This document shows, piece after piece, positions 362 through 27,059 of a stretch of 27,595 nt of DNA; the first letter of the stretch is position 1; each line of letters opens with the position of its first letter. The notes below the pieces were generated by a model. It made no database searches and was not told where the DNA came from. It was given only the letters and a program-made list of their open reading frames with translations. Both the position numbers and the translations under genes were made by a program. Source of the DNA: a virus; the IMG/VR virus record IMGVR_UViG_3300030108_005810, positions 1 to 27,595 of that record. One strand, 5' to 3'.

Positions 362-2224
362 CTATTTTTTGACAACTTTGGTTTTCCAATTTTGATTTAA
401 TCTGCTAGATACAATAAAATTTCCATACGTCTTAAATTTTTTTTCAATGCCAGAATTTTTTACTACATAAACATTCTGCTGTTCTTTTAAATTTTCATCA
501 GCATACAAATATTCAAAAACATTTGTATCCATTAATATTTCATATTCTAATTCTTGACCAAAATGTTTTTGTTTATGGTTTTGTAATTTGATTACATCTT
601 CTGTCTGGAATACATCATATGTTTTCATAAATGTGTCTAATTCTTGTAAAAACTTATTTCTTTGATAATCTCCTATGTCGTTAAACATGCCAATGAACTG
701 TATTCCTTCTAATAATTTTTCTGTGTTTCTTTGTTCAACATGATCAACTAATATTTGAAAGTGACTGTATAGTACTGTGCTTGAGTTTCCTACAAAATAT
801 TCATACAAACTATAATACACGTCTGTGAGCTTTATATTTTTCTGTTTTGATATGTACCGACAGACAACATCACAAAAGCCACTACTGTTCAAATGTTCCA
901 TTAAAAATGTAATAGTGCTGGCTTTTTCAAATTCTTTTACACTCATAGAATTTGTACCAATTACTTTTTCAACCACTTCTTTAACATAAGGACTGTCACC
1001 TATTTGATTAGTTTGTGTAATGATGCCATATTTTTTTCTATACTCTGGAGATGACATCTCAGCATTGGGTAACATTGTTAATAAATTTACTGTAGCCACT
1101 ATACCTAGATCATGAAATCTTTCAAGTGTCGAGACAAAACTATCATAGGTTTCTTCGGGCAAAGGCAAAATTAGTTCTGTGGCAATGTTCACATCATTTT
1201 CTTCACATATCTTAAAAATTTTATAAAAATTTTCTAAAGATATATTTTTCCTTTTAATTGCTTTGCCTGTAAGTTCATTTAGAGATTGGAATGATGCCAT
1301 AAAACGTCTTACAAGTTTTTTTTCTGTCAATGGTCTCACAATATCCAAAAGTGATTCTGTAAACACTTTGTTCCAGTTGGTATCAAATATTTGTGGATAG
1401 TTGTATTTGTTGTGTAACTGTACCATGTATTCAGCTATTTCTACATCTCTGTCTTTAAAAATGCCAAAGTTAGCATCAGCATTAGAAACTAGTTCAACTT
1501 CATTTTTTGCCATCCATTCAAGTTCTTGTTTTACTCGATGTATTCCAACTTTTTTTACTTTACCAAATTCTAGATTCCCCCAATCACAAAAAGTACAACC
1601 AAAAGGACATCCTCTATTTGTTTCTATTATAGCATTTAAAACTACTTTGGTTCCTTTGTATTTTTTAATTAGATCATCAAACAATCCCAAAGTGTAAGGA
1701 CTTGGAATATCATCTAAGTTTACTATCCGATGACATGGAAAAGTTTTCAGTGTATTCTCTTCTAAGTATCCAATGCTACCCATGTCGACTTCTTTTCCTA
1801 AAATATGGTTCAATAAATTAACAAACGCTAATTCTCCTTCTCTATAAATTACAAAATCAATAAAATTATTTTCTTTTAAAAAATTTTCATCCTGATATGG
1901 TACACTTGGACCGCCAAAGAATATAATACAACTTGGAAATTTTTTTTTAATTGCTTTTGCTAAAGTAACATTATATTGATGATTCCAAACAAAACTGCTA
2001 AAACCAAATATAGCAGGGTTGTCTAAACTATTGACAATGTCTTCAATCGGTTCTTTCTTTATTAAAAATTCTTTCAAAGCAAAGTGTTTCATAATGTTTT
2101 GGTCTAACGTAGCATTAGCCCAGAGCACTCCTACACTGTATGGAAAATACATAAACTCATGCTGTGATTCTGAAGGGGTTTCAATGTTAAATTGACAAAG
2201 ATATACATTCATTTTTTTAATCAC
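362..2224 (-). CDS. B12-binding-type radical SAM protein
   Basis: A 620-residue protein with the layout of cobalamin-dependent radical SAM enzymes. The N-terminal Rossmann-like part includes FFGGPSVP at about 102-109 and YREGE at 127-131, both typical of B12-binding radical SAM proteins. The SAM/4Fe-4S motif follows as C206-x3-C210-x2-C213 within RGCPFGCTFCDWG. The long C-terminal region (about 430-620) is unassigned. The start is GTG at 2224-2222, which overlaps the TGA stop of the upstream zinc-ribbon gene by four bases (GTGA), so translation is probably coupled. An ATG five codons in is an alternative start. The gene lies antisense between tail-fibre genes, so it looks like an inserted accessory unit. 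Substrate unknown: members of this broad class methylate or rearrange unreactive carbon centres. The radical SAM assignment is firm. The B12 dependence is likely from the N-terminal motifs. Confidence 0.85.
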   Translation of the reverse strand: MIKKMNVYLCQFNIETPSESQHEFMYFPYSVGVLWANATLDQNIMKHFALKEFLIKKEPIEDIVNSLDNPAIFGFSSFVWNHQYNVTLAKAIKKKFPSCIIFFGGPSVPYQDENFLKENNFIDFVIYREGELAFVNLLNHILGKEVDMGSIGYLEENTLKTFPCHRIVNLDDIPSPYTLGLFDDLIKKYKGTKVVLNAIIETNRGCPFGCTFCDWGNLEFGKVKKVGIHRVKQELEWMAKNEVELVSNADANFGIFKDRDVEIAEYMVQLHNKYNYPQIFDTNWNKVFTESLLDIVRPLTEKKLVRRFMASFQSLNELTGKAIKRKNISLENFYKIFKICEENDVNIATELILPLPEETYDSFVSTLERFHDLGIVATVNLLTMLPNAEMSSPEYRKKYGIITQTNQIGDSPYVKEVVEKVIGTNSMSVKEFEKASTITFLMEHLNSSGFCDVVCRYISKQKNIKLTDVYYSLYEYFVGNSSTVLYSHFQILVDHVEQRNTEKLLEGIQFIGMFNDIGDYQRNKFLQELDTFMKTYDVFQTEDVIKLQNHKQKHFGQELEYEILMDTNVFEYLYADENLKEQQNVYVVKNSGIEKKFKTYGNFIVSSRLNQNWKTKVVKK

Positions 2225-9246: not shown

Positions 9247-9426
9247 ATGCCCAGAAAAGCACAAGGAAAAAAAGTATATTATTCGATGCAGGGTAAGCCT
9301 GTAGATTTCGAAGCCCTTAGAGTAAAACATGAAAAGACCGTAGCAGTTGGCAACACTCACACCAATGCTAGAGGTGATACTTTAGGTAAAGGCGGAAAAA
9401 TTATAAAAAAACGTGACGAAAAATAA
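9247..9426 (+). CDS. Small basic conserved phage protein, 59 aa
   Basis: A short gene with a strong ribosome site (AGGAGAA, seven bases before the ATG). It reads MPRKAQGKKVYYSMQGK, then VAVGNTHTNARGDTLGKGGK and IIKKRDEK. The VGNxxxNARGDxLGxGGKI block is one I associate with a small conserved protein of marine T4-like phages. Very basic and without hydrophobic segments, it may bind nucleic acid or another virion part. The TAA stop shares its final A with the ATG of the GroES-like gene (TAATG), so the two are translationally coupled. Confidence 0.7.
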   Translation: MPRKAQGKKVYYSMQGKPVDFEALRVKHEKTVAVGNTHTNARGDTLGKGGKIIKKRDEK

Positions 9427-9776
9427 TGCCAACTAGAGTTCAAGGAAAAATAAAACCGTTAAAAAAAAGAGTGCTGGTATCAAATATGCACTTTGGCATG
9501 TTGAAAACAAAAAGCGGACTGATTCTTCCTGATGATGACGGCACTGCGGCAGGAACACATCCTAGATGGGCAAAAGTCTATGCCATAGGGCCAGAACAAA
9601 AAGATTTGGAAATAGGACAATGGGTACTAGTTGCTCACGGACGCTGGACTAGAGGCATTATCCTGGAAGAAAACAATCAAGACATGGATGTTAGAATGGT
9701 GGATGAAAATGACATCCTATTAATGACTGACGAAGAACCAGATATTAACACAACCACTGCGCCCTACAAATCATAA
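9426..9776 (+). CDS. GroES-like co-chaperonin (gp31-type)
   Basis: A 116-residue protein with the GroES beta-barrel pattern. PLKKRVLVSN (about 12-21) comes first. A mobile-loop region KTKSGLILPDDDGTAAG follows (about 27-43). Then come RWAKVYAIGPE, IGQWVLVAHGRWTRGI and ENDILLM, which align with GroES elements (RGEVlAVG, vGdvVif, eeDil). In T4, gp31 replaces host GroES to fold the major capsid protein with GroEL. A similar role is inferred here. It is coupled by TAATG to the upstream 59-aa gene, and the operon seems to end before the gp44 promoter. The fold is probable. The identification as functional gp31 is not proven because the family is divergent. Confidence 0.75.
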   Translation: MPTRVQGKIKPLKKRVLVSNMHFGMLKTKSGLILPDDDGTAAGTHPRWAKVYAIGPEQKDLEIGQWVLVAHGRWTRGIILEENNQDMDVRMVDENDILLMTDEEPDINTTTAPYKS

Positions 9777-15727: not shown

Positions 15728-16252
15728 ATGATTGTTGCCCTAGAAAATAAAAACAAAGTTTCATTATTAACTGGCAACATACCAAACTTTACTGACATTA
15801 AACAAAAAGTAAAATCAATCATAGATCTGTCTGAAGACGTACAAAAAAGCGGCACTAATTTAAAATGTAAAATGACGGACTGGAAACTGCATGAAACTCA
15901 GGAATGTTTTAAAAAGATTGCTGATGTAGTAAAAGATCACGTAACATTCCACCAAAGAAAACATCACAAAAGTGCTCATCCAATCACGGTTACTGATTGT
16001 TGGGGAGCTTTTTATCAAGGTGAAGATAAAGCTAAAGAACATTGCCACTATCCAGCTTTATGGAGTGGTGTAGCCTACATAGATTGTCCTACAGATTCCA
16101 AACCAACTGTTTTTCCTTCTTGCGGATACTCACATCCTGCAGAAGAGGGTACCTATATTATTTTCCCAGGATGGCTGAAACACTATGTAGAATCAGGCAG
16201 CCAGAGTAGATATATTGTTGCTTTTAACATGCGGGCACTAAATATTGTTTGA
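15728..16252 (+). CDS. 2OG-Fe(II) oxygenase-like protein
   Basis: A 174-residue protein with a double-stranded beta-helix pattern typical of phage 2-oxoglutarate/iron oxygenases. It has EHCHYPALWSGVAYID (104-119, providing H105 and H107), FPGWLKHYVE (146-155, with H152) and SRYIVAFN (160-167, with R161 to bind 2OG). Such proteins are abundant in marine T4-like phages and their substrates are mostly unknown. The start lies three bases after the preceding stop with no clear ribosome site, so coupling is likely. The position amid lysis genes is not informative for function. Confidence 0.72.
   Translation: MIVALENKNKVSLLTGNIPNFTDIKQKVKSIIDLSEDVQKSGTNLKCKMTDWKLHETQECFKKIADVVKDHVTFHQRKHHKSAHPITVTDCWGAFYQGEDKAKEHCHYPALWSGVAYIDCPTDSKPTVFPSCGYSHPAEEGTYIIFPGWLKHYVESGSQSRYIVAFNMRALNIV
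16237..16244 (+). promoter_or_regulatory. Possible late promoter ACTAAATA within the oxygenase 3' end
   Basis: ACTAAATA followed by seven bases and the ATG at 16252. It matches the spacing of the other late sites but lies in coding sequence, so chance is more likely here than elsewhere. Confidence 0.3.
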
Positions 16253-16545
16253 TGGCAGATATTAAGAAAAAAATCGAACTAGAACTTGAAGTTGACACAG
16301 CTACAACTGATTCATCTAAAAATCCTTTCCAATGGCTAATACATTTAGCCAAAGCAGTTGATTCTTGGAGAATTTTTCCAAGAGTTTTTATCAGCACATA
16401 CATCTTTTTACTTTATAAAGTGGTTATATGGTACATGGAACTTCCCAATCCAACGATAGAACAATCTGGGCTAGTTTCAATTGTAGTAGGTGCTGGAGCG
16501 GCTTGGTTTGGTTTGTACACCGGTACTTCAAAAAAAGACAAGTAA
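16252..16545 (+). CDS. Membrane protein with two transmembrane segments (holin candidate)
   Basis: A 97-residue protein with a charged N-terminus and two hydrophobic segments: IFPRVFISTYIFLLYKVVIWY (about 42-62, given as family-like text in two parts, IFPRVFISTYI and FLLYKVVIWY), and VSIVVGAGAAWFGLYTG (about 75-91). The WRIFPRxFIS block together with VGAGAAWFGLY is a combination I associate with a small membrane protein conserved in marine T4-like phages. It may be the holin that releases the endolysin. The ATG at 16252 shares its A with the previous TGA stop. The TTG just upstream is not preferred. Confidence 0.65.
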   Translation: MADIKKKIELELEVDTATTDSSKNPFQWLIHLAKAVDSWRIFPRVFISTYIFLLYKVVIWYMELPNPTIEQSGLVSIVVGAGAAWFGLYTGTSKKDK

Positions 16546-16557: not shown

Positions 16558-16585
16558 TTGACAGATAAGCATTATATAATATACT
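16558..16585 (+). promoter_or_regulatory. Sigma70-like promoter of the dnaJ-def-clp operon
   Basis: Consensus TTGACA (16558-16563), 16 bases, TATACT (16580-16585), six bases, then the ATG at 16592. +1 is expected at about 16591-16593, so this ATG would be at the transcript end. The ATG at 16586 would lie upstream of +1. Confidence 0.65.
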
Positions 16586-16591
16586 ATGGAC

Positions 16592-17416
16592 ATGGATCCT
16601 TACTTAACCTTAGGTGTTAACCAATCTGCATCCGATCAAGAAATAAAACAAGCATTTAGAAAACTTGCTGTCCAATATCATCCTGATCGTGGAGGAGATG
16701 AAAATAAATTTAAGGAAATTAACGAAGCATACGATAAAATAAAAACTGCCGATAAAAGGCAACAGTTTGAAGCATCAAAAAGATTTGGCGGAGATGGATT
16801 TAATTTTAATTTTTCCGAAGGCGATCCGTTGGACATGCAAGATATGTTCGCACAATTTTTTGGTGAAGGATTTCGACAAAATAGAAGATATCAAAGACGG
16901 CCACAAAATAAAAATATTCAAGTCAGTTTAGAAATCACTTTAGAAGATTCATTCCAGGGAGTCAAAAAATGGTTTACACTCGATCAATTGCCAAAAAAAG
17001 TTTCTGTAGATATTCCAAAAGGAATAGATTCAGGTCAAACAATAAGATACAAAGGTTTAGGAACCAATGCCATTAAAGAAGCGCCACCTGGTGATTTGTT
17101 GATAAAAATTTATGTGGTGCCGCACAAAACGTTTAAAAGAAATAAATTAGATCTGCACACAGAACATACTGTAAATTGTTATGATGCTATACTAGGAACA
17201 AAAATAATAGTTGATCATATAGACAAAAGTAAAATTACTGTAAAAGTGCCGGCTGGCACTCAACCTGGAACTACCATGCGTATTCCAGAACATGGTATGA
17301 GCAATGTAAACAATCAAGTTGGCCATTTGTATGTGCATATAAATGTTAGTATACCTACTAATTTAACAAAAGAGGATAAAGATGACATCGACAGAATCTC
17401 AAAAAAGTATTCTTAA
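16592..17416 (+). CDS. dnaJ: DnaJ-like co-chaperone (CbpA type, no zinc finger)
   Basis: A 274-residue protein starting MDPYLTLGV. The J-domain occupies about 1-62 with the HPD motif at 30-32 (QYHPDRGGDE), which stimulates DnaK ATPase. A Gly/Phe-rich linker (about 63-100) precedes the C-terminal substrate-binding domains (about 108-270), which have VSVDIPKGIDSGQTIRYKGLG, PPGDLLIKIYV and VKVPAGTQPGTTMRIPEHGM. There is no CxxCxGxG zinc finger. It should work with host DnaK. The ATG at 16592 is chosen over 16586 because of the promoter position. The deformylase gene overlaps its 3' end by 35 bases, so it heads a protein-quality-control operon. Confidence 0.88.
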   Translation: MDPYLTLGVNQSASDQEIKQAFRKLAVQYHPDRGGDENKFKEINEAYDKIKTADKRQQFEASKRFGGDGFNFNFSEGDPLDMQDMFAQFFGEGFRQNRRYQRRPQNKNIQVSLEITLEDSFQGVKKWFTLDQLPKKVSVDIPKGIDSGQTIRYKGLGTNAIKEAPPGDLLIKIYVVPHKTFKRNKLDLHTEHTVNCYDAILGTKIIVDHIDKSKITVKVPAGTQPGTTMRIPEHGMSNVNNQVGHLYVHINVSIPTNLTKEDKDDIDRISKKYS

Positions 17417-17900
17417 ACTTAACTTAGAGGGCAATCCTGTGTTAAGACACAAATTATCGGAAACTGATATAACACAAGATCTTGAATGGGATAAAATATC
17501 TGACTTAATGCACAGAACAATGGTAGCAGCTAATGGAATGGGTCTAGCGGCAAACCAAGTTAATGTAGGATTGAGAATGTTTGTAATGAACAGTGATGCT
17601 AAAACTTTTATCAATCCGCATATTATAGAAACTTCAAAAGAAAAACAATCACAAGAAGAAGGCTGTTTGTCTTTTCCAAATTTATTTTTTCAGGTCACAA
17701 GGCCAAAATATATTTTGGTTGAATATCATAATGAAAAATTAGAAGAAAAGGTTGACAGATTCGAAGATATATGGGCACAATGTATACAGCATGAAATTGA
17801 TCATCTCAACGGAGTGCTGTTTATTGATCATGCCAGTAAACTTAAATTAGATAGAGCAAGGATAAAACAGAGAAAAGCAAATGATACAAGCAGACGATAG
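17382..17900 (+). CDS. def: Peptide deformylase
   Basis: A 172-residue metalloenzyme that removes the formyl group from N-terminal methionine. All three motifs are present: GMGLAANQV (52-60), EGCLS (93-97, metal ligand C95) and QHEIDH (136-141, ligands H137 and H141, catalytic E138). It lacks the long C-terminal tail of some bacterial forms. Phage deformylases are known from marine T4-like phages. GAGGATAAAG gives a ribosome site within the end of dnaJ, with which it overlaps by 35 bases. Its own 3' end overlaps the Clp gene by 20 bases. It probably speeds maturation of phage proteins during late infection. Confidence 0.93.
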   Translation: MTSTESQKSILKLNLEGNPVLRHKLSETDITQDLEWDKISDLMHRTMVAANGMGLAANQVNVGLRMFVMNSDAKTFINPHIIETSKEKQSQEEGCLSFPNLFFQVTRPKYILVEYHNEKLEEKVDRFEDIWAQCIQHEIDHLNGVLFIDHASKLKLDRARIKQRKANDTSRR

Positions 17901-20094
17901 ACTAAAAGCAATTTTTGATGATGCTATTAAAATAGCAAGATCTAACAAACACGAATACATTACTTTAGAACATCTTCTTATGATAATGATTGCACAACCG
18001 GAAATCGAAGAAATGTGTAAAAACCATAAGAAAATGAATCTTGATAATTTAAAATTAGATTTGACTAATCATATAAAAGAAAAAATGAATGACATTAAAA
18101 CAAAAGATGATGTCTATCCAAAACGCACCCAGACCACTGATAGAGCAGTTAATAGGGCATTTACCACAGCAATTTTTCAAGGACATGAACAAGTAAGCGT
18201 TTTACATTTGTTACTTTCGTTTTTCAGTGAAACTGAATCATACGCAACCTTTTATCTACAGAAAAACCATTTCACGAAAAAACAAATTATAGATTATATG
18301 ACTGAATTTGGAGATGACAACATAGAAGAATCCAGAATATCATCAAAACAGGCATCAAAAATTTTAAAACAATACACAGTTAATCTGAATGAACAGGCGA
18401 AACAAAATAAAACATTCACTTGTATTGGCAGACAAGATGTAGTAAATGAAATTGTGCTAGTGTTGGGAAGGAAAATAAAAAATAATGCAATAATGATAGG
18501 CGATCCTGGTGTAGGAAAAACTGCCATAGCAGAAGGACTAGCACATATGATTGTAAACAATCAAGTACCAGACGTTTTAAAAGATCATATAATTTATTCG
18601 GTCGATGTAGGATCACTGATAGCAGGATCCAAGTACAGAGGTGACTTTGAAGAACGCCTTAAGGTATTGTTGAATGTACTAGAAAAAAATAACAAAGCAA
18701 TAATGTTCATAGATGAAGCACACATGATGCATGGAGCAGGGTCAGGTGGGCAAGGTGGCGTTGATCTTGCTAACCTATTGAAGCCACATCTAGCTAGAGG
18801 TGATTTAAAAGTTATTGCTTCGACAACTTGGGAGGAATATAGAAAACATTTTGAAAAAGATAGAGCATTAATGCGTAGATTCGCAAAGGTAAACATTGAA
18901 GAGCCTTCAATTGACCATGCTAAACAAATCATGCACGGATTGAAACAACAATTTGAAGCATATCATAATGTTAAAATCACAGATGAATCAATAGACGCCT
19001 GTGTAGATTATGCGGTGAAGTACATAACCGATAGGCAACTTCCTGATAAATCAATTGATGTATTAGATCGAGCATGTGCTAAAGCTAAAATATTTGACGC
19101 TTTTAGAGATGTAGATACTAAAGATATTCAAGAACAAGTTTCAAAAATATCTGGAGTCAAATTTGAATCTATTATCCAAACTAAGACAGAGTCTTTGGAA
19201 AATTTAAATGAAACAATTAAAACGCAGGTGTTTGGACAGGATGATGTAATCGAAAAGCTTGTAGATACAGTTTTGATTGCCCAGGCCGGACTTAAACAGG
19301 AAAACAAGCCGATTGGATCATTCCTATGCGTTGGACCAACCGGTTGTGGCAAGACAGAAACTGCTAGACAACTTGCTGAAGGAATGAATGTTCCACTTGT
19401 TAAATTTGACATGTCAGAATATCAAGAGAAACATGCGGTGGCGAAACTAATTGGTGCTCCTCCAGGTTATGTAGGATATGATGATGGAACAACTGGATCT
19501 GGACAGTTAATCAATGAATTAGAAAAACATCCTAATGCTGTAATATTATTCGATGAAGTAGAGAAAGCACATCGAGATGTAATGACCATTCTATTACAAG
19601 CAATGGACGATGCTGTAATCACAGCATCAAATGGCAAAAAAGTTAAATTAAACAATTCAGTATTGCTTTTAACTTCTAATCTTGGAGCAGAAGACATGCA
19701 GGCGAATACTCTTGGATTTATGGAAAATGAAACACACGATGGTGAAATCGATATCAATAATTATTTTTCCCCAGAATTCAGAAACAGACTCGATGCTGTG
19801 CTAAGATTTAATCCTTTAGATAAACCAACCATGAATTATATTGTAGACAAATTTATTAAACATTTGTCCACGCAAATAGCTGACAAAAATATAATTTTAA
19901 AATTAAGTGATAGTGCTAAAAAACAGTTAATAGAAGAAGGATTCAATGTGAAAATGGGAGCAAGACCTCTACAACGTGTGATTAATAATAGGATAAAATT
20001 GCCTTTATCAAAACAAATACTATTTGAATCATTACATGACGTGACACTTACGATAAGTTTTGACAAAAACAAAGATGAGTTTACTATAGGATAA
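17881..20094 (+). CDS. clpA: ClpA-type AAA+ protein unfoldase
   Basis: A 737-residue double-AAA+ ATPase of the Clp/Hsp100 class. It has an N-terminal Clp-N-like domain (about 1-140). AAA-1 has Walker A GDPGVGKT (207-214) and Walker B FIDEAH (276-281), with the pore-type segment SKYRGDFEERL. AAA-2 has Walker A GPTGCGKT (485-492), GAPPGYVGYD, Walker B FDEVEKAH (557-564), SNLGAED and sensor-2 GARPLQR. The long ClpB coiled-coil M domain is absent, so it is ClpA/ClpC-like. In AAA-2 the tripeptide LGF (611-613) lies where ClpA and ClpX carry the ClpP-docking loop, so it may feed host ClpP. The gene overlaps the deformylase by 20 bases. The start MIQADDRLK fits the N-domain. Annotation as clpB is the main alternative. 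Confidence 0.9.
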   Translation: MIQADDRLKAIFDDAIKIARSNKHEYITLEHLLMIMIAQPEIEEMCKNHKKMNLDNLKLDLTNHIKEKMNDIKTKDDVYPKRTQTTDRAVNRAFTTAIFQGHEQVSVLHLLLSFFSETESYATFYLQKNHFTKKQIIDYMTEFGDDNIEESRISSKQASKILKQYTVNLNEQAKQNKTFTCIGRQDVVNEIVLVLGRKIKNNAIMIGDPGVGKTAIAEGLAHMIVNNQVPDVLKDHIIYSVDVGSLIAGSKYRGDFEERLKVLLNVLEKNNKAIMFIDEAHMMHGAGSGGQGGVDLANLLKPHLARGDLKVIASTTWEEYRKHFEKDRALMRRFAKVNIEEPSIDHAKQIMHGLKQQFEAYHNVKITDESIDACVDYAVKYITDRQLPDKSIDVLDRACAKAKIFDAFRDVDTKDIQEQVSKISGVKFESIIQTKTESLENLNETIKTQVFGQDDVIEKLVDTVLIAQAGLKQENKPIGSFLCVGPTGCGKTETARQLAEGMNVPLVKFDMSEYQEKHAVAKLIGAPPGYVGYDDGTTGSGQLINELEKHPNAVILFDEVEKAHRDVMTILLQAMDDAVITASNGKKVKLNNSVLLLTSNLGAEDMQANTLGFMENETHDGEIDINNYFSPEFRNRLDAVLRFNPLDKPTMNYIVDKFIKHLSTQIADKNIILKLSDSAKKQLIEEGFNVKMGARPLQRVINNRIKLPLSKQILFESLHDVTLTISFDKNKDEFTIG

Positions 20095-20098
20095 TAAA

Positions 20099-20380
20099 AT
20101 GGAAAGTAAAATAATAAAATTTATGATTGATCATCAATATCTAAAAACAAACTGTATTATAAACGCAACATTTTCAGCTCCAGGCGTAGGTGGACTACCT
20201 GTGCAGGTCACAAAAGATCTGTTGTATGAAGACTGTGCTGAAACGCCAAAAGGAAAAATTTATGTCAAAGGCTGTGATCCAGAAAATCTAAGAGAATATG
20301 TGGTAGGAGCCTCAAAAGTACATCAACTTAATGGCATGGATCAAACAACTATCGAACGTCTGTATCCAGAGATGCCATAA
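20099..20380 (+). CDS. Hypothetical protein downstream of clpA
   Basis: A 93-residue protein without a recognised domain. It includes NCIINATFSAPGVGGLPVQV, GKIYVKGCDPENLREYVVGA and a C-terminal MDQTTIERLYPEMP. The ribosome site AGGA lies seven bases before the ATG, and the start is four bases after the Clp stop, so it is part of the dnaJ-def-clpA operon. It does not resemble the adaptor ClpS by eye. A link with the proteostasis genes is possible from position only. Confidence 0.55.
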   Translation: MESKIIKFMIDHQYLKTNCIINATFSAPGVGGLPVQVTKDLLYEDCAETPKGKIYVKGCDPENLREYVVGASKVHQLNGMDQTTIERLYPEMP

Positions 20381-20756: not shown

Positions 20757-21101
20757 ATGATAGCAGGTAAAGTATGGGGAACCTCAGAACTAGTTGAACG
20801 CAACGGAGTGCTGGAATTTCACAGGATAGTAACAAACAAAGGCGGAGTATGTTCCAAGCATCTACATGAATATAAATGGAATGGTTTTTTTGTTGAGAAA
20901 GGAAAACTTTTAATAAGAGTCTGGCAGAAAGATTATGACCTATGTGATGAAACAATTCTTACCGACGGTATGTATACCAAAGTTAAGCCTGGACTTCTGC
21001 ATCAGTTTGAAGTGTTGGAAGATACCATTGCTTATGAATTATACTGGGCTGAATTTCCTGAAAAAGACATTCAACGAGACACGGTAGGTTACCAAAAATA
21101 A
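20757..21101 (+). CDS. Cupin-fold protein
   Basis: A 114-residue single-domain cupin. SKHLHEYKWNGFFVEKGKLL (about 34-53) holds the first motif (HxH with a downstream Glu and Gly), and VKPGLLHQFEVLED (about 78-91) gives the second (PGxxHxF). These residues normally bind a metal. Cupins of this size are common in marine phages with unknown substrates. Some relatives are sugar isomerases or dioxygenases, others only bind metabolites. The sigma70-like promoter suggests early or middle expression, unlike the late gene just upstream. The fold is fairly sure. The activity is not. Confidence 0.72.
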   Translation: MIAGKVWGTSELVERNGVLEFHRIVTNKGGVCSKHLHEYKWNGFFVEKGKLLIRVWQKDYDLCDETILTDGMYTKVKPGLLHQFEVLEDTIAYELYWAEFPEKDIQRDTVGYQK

Positions 21102-24454: not shown

Positions 24455-25726
24455 GTGAAAGACCTAAGTAAAATAAAAAAAGATCTCGAGAAAGTATCTC
24501 CTACAATTTGTCATGCAAAGTGGCACTATAATCAAATTAACATGGAGCAAGGTAGAACAGCAAACTGCCACATCAATCCATATCACAAAATCCCGCAAAA
24601 TGCTCGTGGCTTAGATTTTTTTAACACTCCACAAAAAATAAAAGAAAGGCAAGAAATGAGGTCAGGAAAAAAACCTGCAGGTTGTAGTGCGTGTTGGAAG
24701 GATGAATCCCATGGGGTGTTAAGTGATAGAATATGGATGAGTAATAACTTTGTAAGGAGAGGATTTAACAATTCGACTTTTGATAAAGATGTTGTAGTTC
24801 CAGCTTATGTAGGAATAAATTTAGACAACTTATGTAATTTTGCTTGTTCATATTGTGACAACAGCCAAAGTTCTACGTGGGCGAATGTCTTAAGGAAAAA
24901 TGGTCCTTTCAAAAATATTAACACAGACAAAGCTAGAAGATATCAAAGTATTATGAGCAGATTCAAACAAACAGCAGAAGAACGTAAAGACATGTATCAA
25001 AGACTGTTTGACGCAATAAAAGAGAATATAAAGGACATCCAGGATATAGAATTTGAAGGTGGTGAACCAAGTAACAGTCCGAACTTTTGGAAATTTATTA
25101 ACTTTTTAAAAACACTAGACGCAAAACATCTAAGAATATCCCTAGCATCTAATTTATGCCCATCTAACAATTATGATTTAGATAAGTTTAAAGATCTACC
25201 AAAATATTTTAAACAAATAAAAATTACAGGTAGTGTTGAAAACATAGGAAAAATTGCTGAATTCACAAGATATGGAACAAGGTGGCACGACATCAAGCCA
25301 AATATTATCAAACTAATGGATCTGGGCATTCATTTAAGTTTCTCAGCAACAATAAGTGCCTTAACTGTGTTAAACTATGATCAGTTTTTAGAATGGCAGT
25401 CACAAAGTGGGCTCAAAATGTATAATCATAAGACAATGGTTAAAGAGCCAGAATTCCAATCAATTGACGTCTTACCACGGCACATAAGGTTAAAATGTTC
25501 TGATAAAATAGCAAATGTTTTACAAAAAAACAAAAGTTACTTTGATTATCATAACACATTCGAAAAATTACAATCTATTTCTGATGCTTTAAGGGTACCA
25601 AATAAACCTGATGTGAGACTTCAACAAGATCTTAAGAACTTTTTTATTCAATACTGTGACCTAACAAAAAATTCACATGATATATTAGGTAAGGAATTTG
25701 CGGATTGGATCCATTCAGTTAAGTAA
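24455..25726 (+). CDS. Twitch-type radical SAM protein
   Basis: A 423-residue radical SAM enzyme with the cluster motif C127-x3-C131-x2-C134 (NLCNFACSYCDNS) and FEGGEPSNSP as the GGE-type SAM-binding segment. Before it lies PAGCSACWKDESHG (about 74-87), the extra CxxCW block typical of twitch-domain radical SAM proteins in marine phages and cyanobacteria. The substrate is unknown. The GTG start is accepted because TATAAT lies seven bases upstream and no ATG is near. Unlike the radical SAM enzyme at 362-2224, it has no B12 domain and belongs to another subgroup. Early-type expression suggests a role in host or nucleic-acid modification rather than virion assembly. This is inference. Confidence 0.83.
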   Translation: MKDLSKIKKDLEKVSPTICHAKWHYNQINMEQGRTANCHINPYHKIPQNARGLDFFNTPQKIKERQEMRSGKKPAGCSACWKDESHGVLSDRIWMSNNFVRRGFNNSTFDKDVVVPAYVGINLDNLCNFACSYCDNSQSSTWANVLRKNGPFKNINTDKARRYQSIMSRFKQTAEERKDMYQRLFDAIKENIKDIQDIEFEGGEPSNSPNFWKFINFLKTLDAKHLRISLASNLCPSNNYDLDKFKDLPKYFKQIKITGSVENIGKIAEFTRYGTRWHDIKPNIIKLMDLGIHLSFSATISALTVLNYDQFLEWQSQSGLKMYNHKTMVKEPEFQSIDVLPRHIRLKCSDKIANVLQKNKSYFDYHNTFEKLQSISDALRVPNKPDVRLQQDLKNFFIQYCDLTKNSHDILGKEFADWIHSVK

Positions 25727-25734: not shown

Positions 25735-25881
25735 ATGAGACTGTATGAAATTAAAAAAAAATTAGGATATCATCCTAGTGTTTTAAGATATCCATATAGG
25801 GTTTCAAGAAAAAACAATAAAGTAGTGCTTAAAAAAGACAAATCCATGGGATTGACAGGCACAAATAAAGGTGTATACTAG
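25735..25881 (+). CDS. Very small basic protein, 48 aa
   Basis: Reads MRLYEIKKKLGYHPSVLRYP, then YRVSRKNNKVVLKKDKSMG and LTGTNKGVY. It is strongly basic and has no hydrophobic segment. It is supported by a late promoter motif at the standard distance, by its two-base gap to the next gene, and by the N-terminal M-x-x-x-E-I pattern shared with four nearby proteins. A small nucleic-acid-binding or packaged protein is possible. Confidence 0.55.
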   Translation: MRLYEIKKKLGYHPSVLRYPYRVSRKNNKVVLKKDKSMGLTGTNKGVY

Positions 25882-25883
25882 AA

Positions 25884-27059
25884 ATGAAATATAGGGAACT
25901 ATTGTTTATGGGCGGAAAATCAGCTGATGTAAGATATACCAGTGAAATAGGATCTTTACTTGCCATGCCTAATGTTCTAAAAGTTCCTATTAATAAACTG
26001 GATATGACACAGCCTATTAATACTTGGATTAATCTCAAAGCAATTTCAAGCGATCCCAATAAATTAGAGAATGACATCAAAAAGTTAGTGTTACCAATTT
26101 TAAACGAGAAGACTATCCCACAAGTAATGGGATGGTATAACAAAGTCAAGAATGAATATCTTCCAGTGATAAAGAAAGAAATGGGTAAACTTCCTACGAA
26201 GTATGGCTGGGCGGCTGGTAGCAATGTTAGTGTTGATGGATCTCCAGTTGATGTAGAATTTTCGGAATCTGATTTTGGAGGAATATCAGTAAAAGATAAA
26301 GGTGGTATAACACTTTTTAGTACATCGCCAAAAACTTTTGGCATCGACGCTCCTAAAGGCATTGATAATGTTAAGTCACTAGCGCCTGCTGAATACACTA
26401 GTTGGATGTCAAATTCAATGAAATCTGTTTTAAAACAAGCAAAACAAAGCCCAGGACAGTTATCGTTTGGAGATCCTAATTACTATGTTGAATACAACCC
26501 GGAAAACAACACATTTACTCTGCAGGGTAAAGGTGCAGGAAAATTAACAAAAGTTGAAAACCAAACGGCAAATGATATTTTAAAAAATGCTGGTCAAAAT
26601 TTAGATCAACATAGAGTATTTGGTGATTGGTATGTAAAGCAAGGAGTTAAACAAGACAACGATTTCATGTCTCCACTGAGAAAAAAGGTAACATCAGAAA
26701 TAGTGGGCAGGGTCGAAAACGCCCTTAACAATCCAAAACTTATAAAACAATTGGTTAGAATAGGACCAAAATCATATTTTTATGCCACTCCGCAAAGCTT
26801 GTATGTAGTGCCAAAAGATGAAGCAGTAGGCGATCTTGTGGCAAGATTATCGCCAGCAAAAGAAGGCAGGAAGGCATCAAGTTTCCTTTTTATTATTTCC
26901 ATGTACGCAAAGCCTGAAGGGGATGAAAAACCTAATCCAAATCCAGCAAAAGCAGAACTATTTTTCCGCTGGAGAAACGGACTATTTGCGTCAAATGTTA
27001 CTGTGGCTATACAAAGTTTAAAAACTCCAGAATCAATCTTCTGGCAAAAACTAGTATAA
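25884..27059 (+). CDS. Large hypothetical protein, 391 aa
   Basis: No family recognised with confidence. It starts MKYRELLFMGG (shared N-terminal pattern). Residues about 108-135 read AAGSNVSVDGSPVDVEFSES and then DFGGISVKDKGG. The D-x-E followed by SVK could be a degenerate PD-(D/E)xK nuclease core, but this is weak. The C-terminal part has IGPKSYFYATPQSLYVVPKD and AKAELFFRWRNGLFASNVTV. It follows the 48-aa gene in one transcript. Alternatives are a virion-internal protein or a nuclease against host DNA. Confidence 0.55.
   Translation: MKYRELLFMGGKSADVRYTSEIGSLLAMPNVLKVPINKLDMTQPINTWINLKAISSDPNKLENDIKKLVLPILNEKTIPQVMGWYNKVKNEYLPVIKKEMGKLPTKYGWAAGSNVSVDGSPVDVEFSESDFGGISVKDKGGITLFSTSPKTFGIDAPKGIDNVKSLAPAEYTSWMSNSMKSVLKQAKQSPGQLSFGDPNYYVEYNPENNTFTLQGKGAGKLTKVENQTANDILKNAGQNLDQHRVFGDWYVKQGVKQDNDFMSPLRKKVTSEIVGRVENALNNPKLIKQLVRIGPKSYFYATPQSLYVVPKDEAVGDLVARLSPAKEGRKASSFLFIISMYAKPEGDEKPNPNPAKAELFFRWRNGLFASNVTVAIQSLKTPESIFWQKLV

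Follow-up and report, generated by a model that had tools for sequence, protein, structure and literature searches.

A conserved dnaJ-clpA gene pair with an optional def slot in jumbo phages and its likely role in phage protein quality control

Why would a phage keep a chaperone, a maturation enzyme and an unfoldase in one run of overlapping genes? The question is raised by IMG/VR record IMGVR_UViG_3300030108_005810, a marine virus fragment without further genome that we analysed over its entire length (positions 1-27,595, hereafter the window), and in which dnaJ (16592..17416), def (17382..17900) and clpA (17881..20094) follow one another on the plus strand. The three open reading frames (ORFs) were confirmed, and their products were identified from sequence matches (Pfam, PDB), which settled the fold of each of the three. 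An earlier note, made from the sequence alone, had described a J-protein, a deformylase and a Clp unfoldase overlapping by 35 and 20 bases and had suggested that the trio may remodel the host proteome. The Pfam domains agree with all three identities, and both overlaps are exact (17382..17416 for dnaJ/def and 17881..17900 for def/clpA, plus strand). Its gene order, syntenic with that of Pseudomonas phage PA5oct, marks the window as part of a jumbo T4-like phage genome of the PA5oct lineage. The answer we favour, and hold to be rather likely from the sequence comparisons below, is a phage-owned protein quality-control operon: a phage ClpS-ClpA-ClpP protease and a DnaK-recruiting J-protein, with Def as a maturation aid.

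Viral contigs were scanned with three different ClpA queries and, in reverse, with Def and DnaJ, and phage records were merged in; the resulting locus set holds the best matches of each scan rather than a random sample. Once duplicates and bacterial loci had been removed, 186 distinct phage ClpAs remained, of which 89 are encoded in the order dnaJ-def-clpA and 71 in the order dnaJ-clpA. The others have def without dnaJ directly before it (7), have neither gene next to clpA (10) or are cut by contig ends (9). Gene order in related phages, which the earlier note had named as the check that could speak for or against the grouping, is thus conserved, and it is also found in Sinorhizobium phage Phosso (with def) and in Atu_ph07 and PA5oct (as dnaJ-clpA). 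Because 89 loci carry def and 71 lack it, these counts make dnaJ-clpA the conserved core and def an optional gene in its junction. Among the 89 loci with def, the def-clpA junction overlaps in 78, the dnaJ-def junction in 71, and both in 64. The def/clpA overlap spans 14-20 bp in close relatives of the window, and the 35-bp dnaJ/def overlap has the same length in 12/12 of them, even though synonymous divergence (dS) among these relatives is about 1-3. Values of pN/pS between 0.15 and 0.47 across dnaJ, def and clpA indicate purifying selection on all three. The constancy of the overlap at such divergence, the low pN/pS and the recurrence of the order in 89 loci make the cluster more than a product of chance; the genes are probably co-transcribed and form a real, conserved proteostasis cluster. 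Clp sets in jumbo phages are already known, and what appears new here is the conserved dnaJ-clpA module with its def slot, of which we found no prior description in the open-access papers searched.

Traced over a tree built from 71 representative ClpAs, def appears or disappears 16 times, always at the same place, and well-supported branches force at least 11 of these gains or losses. Def and ClpA distances are strongly correlated at shallow depth (rho 0.83) and little at larger depth (0.17, against 0.36 for dnaJ). The Def tree places the Def of the window clade apart from that of its ClpA sister clade, but an approximately unbiased (AU) test did not reject their joint descent (p 0.35). We therefore do not claim that the window clade captured its def independently; recurrent loss explains the pattern equally well. 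A genome scan for a bacterial origin of ClpA was uninformative: its two best matches (L312 and L313) are phage dnaJ-clpA pairs on contigs filed in metagenome-assembled genomes (MAGs) of Pacearchaeota and Neomarinimicrobiota, and are probably phage contigs binned into these MAGs.

The ClpA of the window has the Pfam domains Clp_N, AAA, AAA_lid_9, AAA_2 and ClpB_D2-small, and matches E. coli ClpA (1ksf; 2e-184, 618 bits) in a single collinear stretch (residues 12-737 versus 10-745). ClpB matches it only in two stretches. A ClpB-like disaggregase was rejected because the ClpB-type middle domain is absent and the ClpP loop is present. The Walker A/B, pore-loop and Arg-finger residues of the two AAA+ modules are kept across the ClpAs of the module. 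The window loop, LGF at residues 611-613, aligns with I617-G618-L619 of E. coli and fits the pattern [IVL]G[FL] of loops that bind ClpP; in every intact module ClpA the docking loop reads [ILV]GF. The N-domain of the window protein also keeps E23, E28, T81, R86 and R90, residues with a role in ClpS binding.

Partner genes were surveyed in two sets of related records (n=19 and n=25), many of them fragmentary. We found ClpP in 15/19 and 13/25 records and ClpS in 15/19 and 8/25. Within the window clade, ClpP is encoded by three records (G008, G012, G017), and one of these, G008, encodes ClpA, ClpP and ClpS together. The ClpPs of relatives keep Ser, His and Asp, and most module phages keep N34, D35, T38 and H66 in ClpS; in the first eight ClpS compared, M62 is usually T, a change that might shift specificity. 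Among records of at least 250 kb (Rak2-like phages left out), both proteins are present in 7/8 def-bearing records, the exception being G032, and in 4/6 def-less ones, so that in this small sample they show no association with def (Fisher p 0.54). As relatives bring their own ClpP with its catalytic residues, and also a ClpS whose N-degron pocket is intact, a phage-encoded ClpSAP machine appears likely. The host ClpP that the earlier note had in mind as partner is thus not the default one, even if it may be used too.

Where clpA stands alone, in Rak2-like phages and in Vibrio phage 2.275, the loop is altered to LGM, IGM or IGV; in Salicola SCTP-2 it reads IGY. In the stand-alone group (L006-L011) the altered loop goes together with ClpS-like proteins that have lost N-degron pocket residues and with a ClpP whose triad is kept, which suggests that their Clp machine was repurposed. 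The contrast in loop and pocket between module and Rak2-like phages provides a natural experiment on where coupling to ClpP and ClpS matters.

The J-protein of the window matches DnaJ (PF00226, 1e-18) and DnaJ_C (PF01556, 2e-39). An HPD-bearing J domain, a G/F-rich linker and substrate domains at the C-terminus, together with the lack of a zinc finger, make it a class B (type II) J-protein, with Thermus DnaJ2 as the closest PDB match. Among module DnaJs, HPD is present in 148/149 and CxxCxG in none. DnaK is encoded in only 2/19 related records. We thus rejected a phage DnaK as the general partner, and the J-protein most likely recruits that of the host. A few members do carry Hsp70 too: in contigs G004 and G007 (L101, L102, L114 and L115) a DnaK gene lies about 0.7 kb from clpS.

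Def matches Pep_deformylase (PF01327, 4e-43) and its motifs GMGLAANQ, EEGCLSFP and QHEIDHL retain the deformylase signatures GxGLAAxQ, EGCLS and HExxH. Its C-terminal basic helix keeps five of the six residues by which the E. coli peptide deformylase (PDF) contacts the ribosome (L149, K150, R153, K157 and K160, with R163 replaced by D; PMC12690207); in other module Defs, position 153 is usually L or M. Because these contacts are kept in the window protein, co-translational maturation seems a likelier role for Def than feeding Clp turnover.

As a quality-control operon, the cluster would provide a ClpA that assembles with phage ClpP, possibly with host ClpP as well, and takes its substrates directly or via phage ClpS. 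The resulting virus-encoded ClpSAP protease would remove misfolded, stalled or N-degron-bearing proteins of the host, of the phage or of both. The J-protein would hand unfolded clients to host DnaK, folding and unfolding or degradation being produced together. Where present, Def would dock at the ribosome exit and deformylate the burst of phage nascent chains, as a maturation aid co-expressed with chaperones and not as a source of Clp substrates. Several observations count against this scheme. The ClpS of Atu_ph07 lacks H66 although the phage has dnaJ-clpA with an IGF loop. Two large contigs, G026 (329 kb) and G032 (270 kb), carry the module without ClpP and ClpS, so that proteins of the host would have to serve there unless these contigs are incomplete. 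Moreover, neither clpP nor clpS is linked to the operon, and the window, a 27.6-kb fragment, carries only ClpA of the three, the ClpP and ClpS of its own phage being predicted from relatives. Chaperone and protease genes of jumbo phages are usually read singly; a module accompanied by the phage's own ClpP and ClpS makes phage-run regulated proteolysis testable, and cultured representatives on laboratory hosts exist (Phosso, Atu_ph07 and PA5oct).

The neighbourhood of the cluster raises the strongest competing explanation. Window and PA5oct share, in the same order, a GroES-like gene (42% identical), a clamp loader (57%), PhoH (49%, on the minus strand), the genes designated 11808 (42%) and 12311 (32%), dnaJ (24%), clpA (41%) and 20389 (32%). 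The GroES-like gene, a gp31-type co-chaperonin (Cpn10; 9426..9776, plus strand), is indeed where the earlier note had seen one elsewhere in the window, and belongs to this wider conserved block, outside the operon. The genes 11808, 12311 and 20389 match PA5oct gp189, gp188 and gp185, of which gp189 and gp185 were found by mass spectrometry; the first two are homologues of virion proteins and the third of a structural protein. A lysis cassette with a GH108 endolysin and an Rz-like spanin lies upstream. Together with the virion-gene neighbours, it makes a late, virion-linked context plausible. The three genes might accordingly serve virion assembly, with the J-protein and ClpA folding or remodelling tail and capsid proteins as chaperones, like gp31 or MoxR-vWA, without proteolysis, and with Def maturing structural proteins. 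Virion-structure genes on both sides, the GroES-like gene in the same block and a tail protein encoded by the PA5oct gene after next all fit this idea. Yet the ClpP-docking loop, which a protein acting only as a chaperone could do without, is kept by every intact module ClpA and changed only outside the module, and ClpP is co-encoded; we therefore see a pure assembly role as unlikely, though deserving serious attention. The position of the genes among virion-structure genes also bears on the target of the system: control of the phage's own proteins is at least as likely as the remodelling of the host proteome put forward by the earlier note.

A second alternative takes up the proposal in that note that deformylase-made free N-termini influence Clp-dependent turnover. 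Def would control entry to Clp proteolysis: it might expose N-termini to ClpS, or it might strip off N-formylmethionine (fMet) degrons and so spare phage proteins. Developed in full, a ribosome-docked phage Def would edit nascent N-termini, phage ClpS-ClpA-ClpP would read them and destroy chosen proteins, and phage and host proteins would be sorted by N-terminus during infection, the J-protein handing over clients. The proteostasis genes that flank def on both sides in 89 loci, the ribosome-contact residues of the window Def and the co-encoded ClpS with intact pocket are in line with such coupling. The expectation is nonetheless unsupported by our comparisons: def is dispensable, with at least 11 gains or losses against a stable dnaJ-clpA background, the presence of ClpS and ClpP shows no dependence on it, and Aat or MetAP are encoded in 0/19 related records. 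Nor is a free N-terminal Met known as a classical ClpS ligand. We consider the coupling improbable, and the sorting scheme built on it no less so. Def might still affect degradation, and the sign of the effect could be opposite to the one proposed, since fMet itself has been put forward as a degron, one that deformylase would take away (PMC4745127), and its removal would protect phage proteins.

Counter-defence, in which the J-protein and ClpA(P) would break down or neutralise host immune proteins or antitoxins, strikes us as quite improbable. It draws on a work cited in PMC12619734 that reports E. coli DnaJ as necessary for phage sensing by bNACHT25, and on a jumbo-phage review suggesting host proteins as targets of ClpP/ClpS (PMC7824862). 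Against it, we saw no defence-related neighbour around the cluster, which is kept over very diverse phages beside virion genes and not in a variable anti-defence region. Finally, that three independently acquired host genes came together by chance is scarcely credible and, for dnaJ-clpA, already refuted: def and dnaJ do occur without clpA elsewhere in other phages, but tens of lineages share the same order, strand and overlaps, with purifying selection on the genes.

The quality-control operon that we favour can be compared with systems already described. Agrobacterium phage Atu_ph07 has ClpA (gp292) adjoining DnaJ (gp293), and its genome also encodes ClpP (gp676) and ClpS (gp708) but no def; as far as the part of its description covered here goes, the authors list ClpA, ClpP, ClpS and DnaJ and suggest roles in aggregate clearance and assembly, and do not point to a conserved module in the order of these genes (PMC6102473). 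PA5oct (Arenbergviridae) also encodes ClpP and ClpS, but lacks def and has a shorter J-protein (229 aa). Phosso is the only cultured phage in which we found dnaJ-def-clpA with matching order and strand, and it also encodes ClpP and ClpS; it differs by a 42-bp gap between dnaJ and def instead of an overlap, and its ClpA is about 40% identical. Compared with the N-degron protease of E. coli, the phage ClpA is collinear and the ClpS pocket and ClpP triad are kept, whereas clpS adjoins clpA in E. coli and the phage clpA adjoins dnaJ/def, with clpS and clpP elsewhere and no Aat. Cyanophage S-SSM7 Def shares the catalytic motifs but lacks the C-terminal helix, which is kept in module Defs, themselves encoded beside chaperone genes; accessory bacterial PDFs are likewise encoded on mobile genomes with the same motifs (PMC12690207). 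The J-domain protein of phage RB43 is reported to interact with DnaK (Perrody 2012, as cited in PMC12619734) and has no known clpA partner. In moraphages, an aquatic jumbo lineage to which some of the related contigs may belong, ClpA belongs to the core genes and DnaJ/DnaK are common, while deformylase and ClpS go unmentioned (PMC12619734). A survey of jumbo phages treats Clp and DnaJ genes as scattered (PMC7824862).

The consensus promoter that the earlier note had placed ahead of the cluster is present as a sigma-70-type TTGACA-N16-TATACT (16558..16585, plus strand; 11/12 consensus), a single match of a kind that is weak evidence in AT-rich DNA. Its boxes, 16-bp spacer and contact with the first ATG of the dnaJ ORF are kept in all window-clade relatives except L018, and the flanking bases drift. 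We rejected a promoter common to the whole family, since in distant relatives a TAAATAAGT-type motif takes the place of TTGACA/TATACT ahead of the dnaJ ATG; unlike the gene order, the promoter is therefore clade-specific. The dnaJ ORF as called opens at 16586. Since L018 lacks this first ATG and the DnaJ homology with relatives begins at the second, the start is probably 16592, as the earlier note had it. The usual promoter spacing puts the predicted +1 near 16592, at the A of this second ATG, and the dnaJ message may therefore be leaderless. Only one other TTGACA-N16-TATACT occurs in the window (25852-25884), followed 4 bp later by the ATG of a 391-aa gene, a near-leaderless layout like that before dnaJ. 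At the other end of the cluster, a 93-aa ORF (20099..20380, plus strand) starts 4 bp past clpA and is kept in 12/12 window-clade relatives; it has no Pfam or PHROG match and is possibly the last gene of the operon.

Other genes around the module are worth recording. Just before dnaJ, a small membrane-like protein (16249-16545, phrog_10198), a candidate holin, is kept not only in the window clade but also in several sister lineages. Directly upstream of it lies a 2OG-Fe(II) oxygenase-like gene (15728-16252, PF13759), and downstream of the module a cupin/cysteine dioxygenase-like protein (20757-21101, phrog_7851). Further away, the window encodes two radical SAM proteins (362-2224, minus strand, with a B12-binding domain, and 24455-25726, plus strand), an unusual cargo for a phage.

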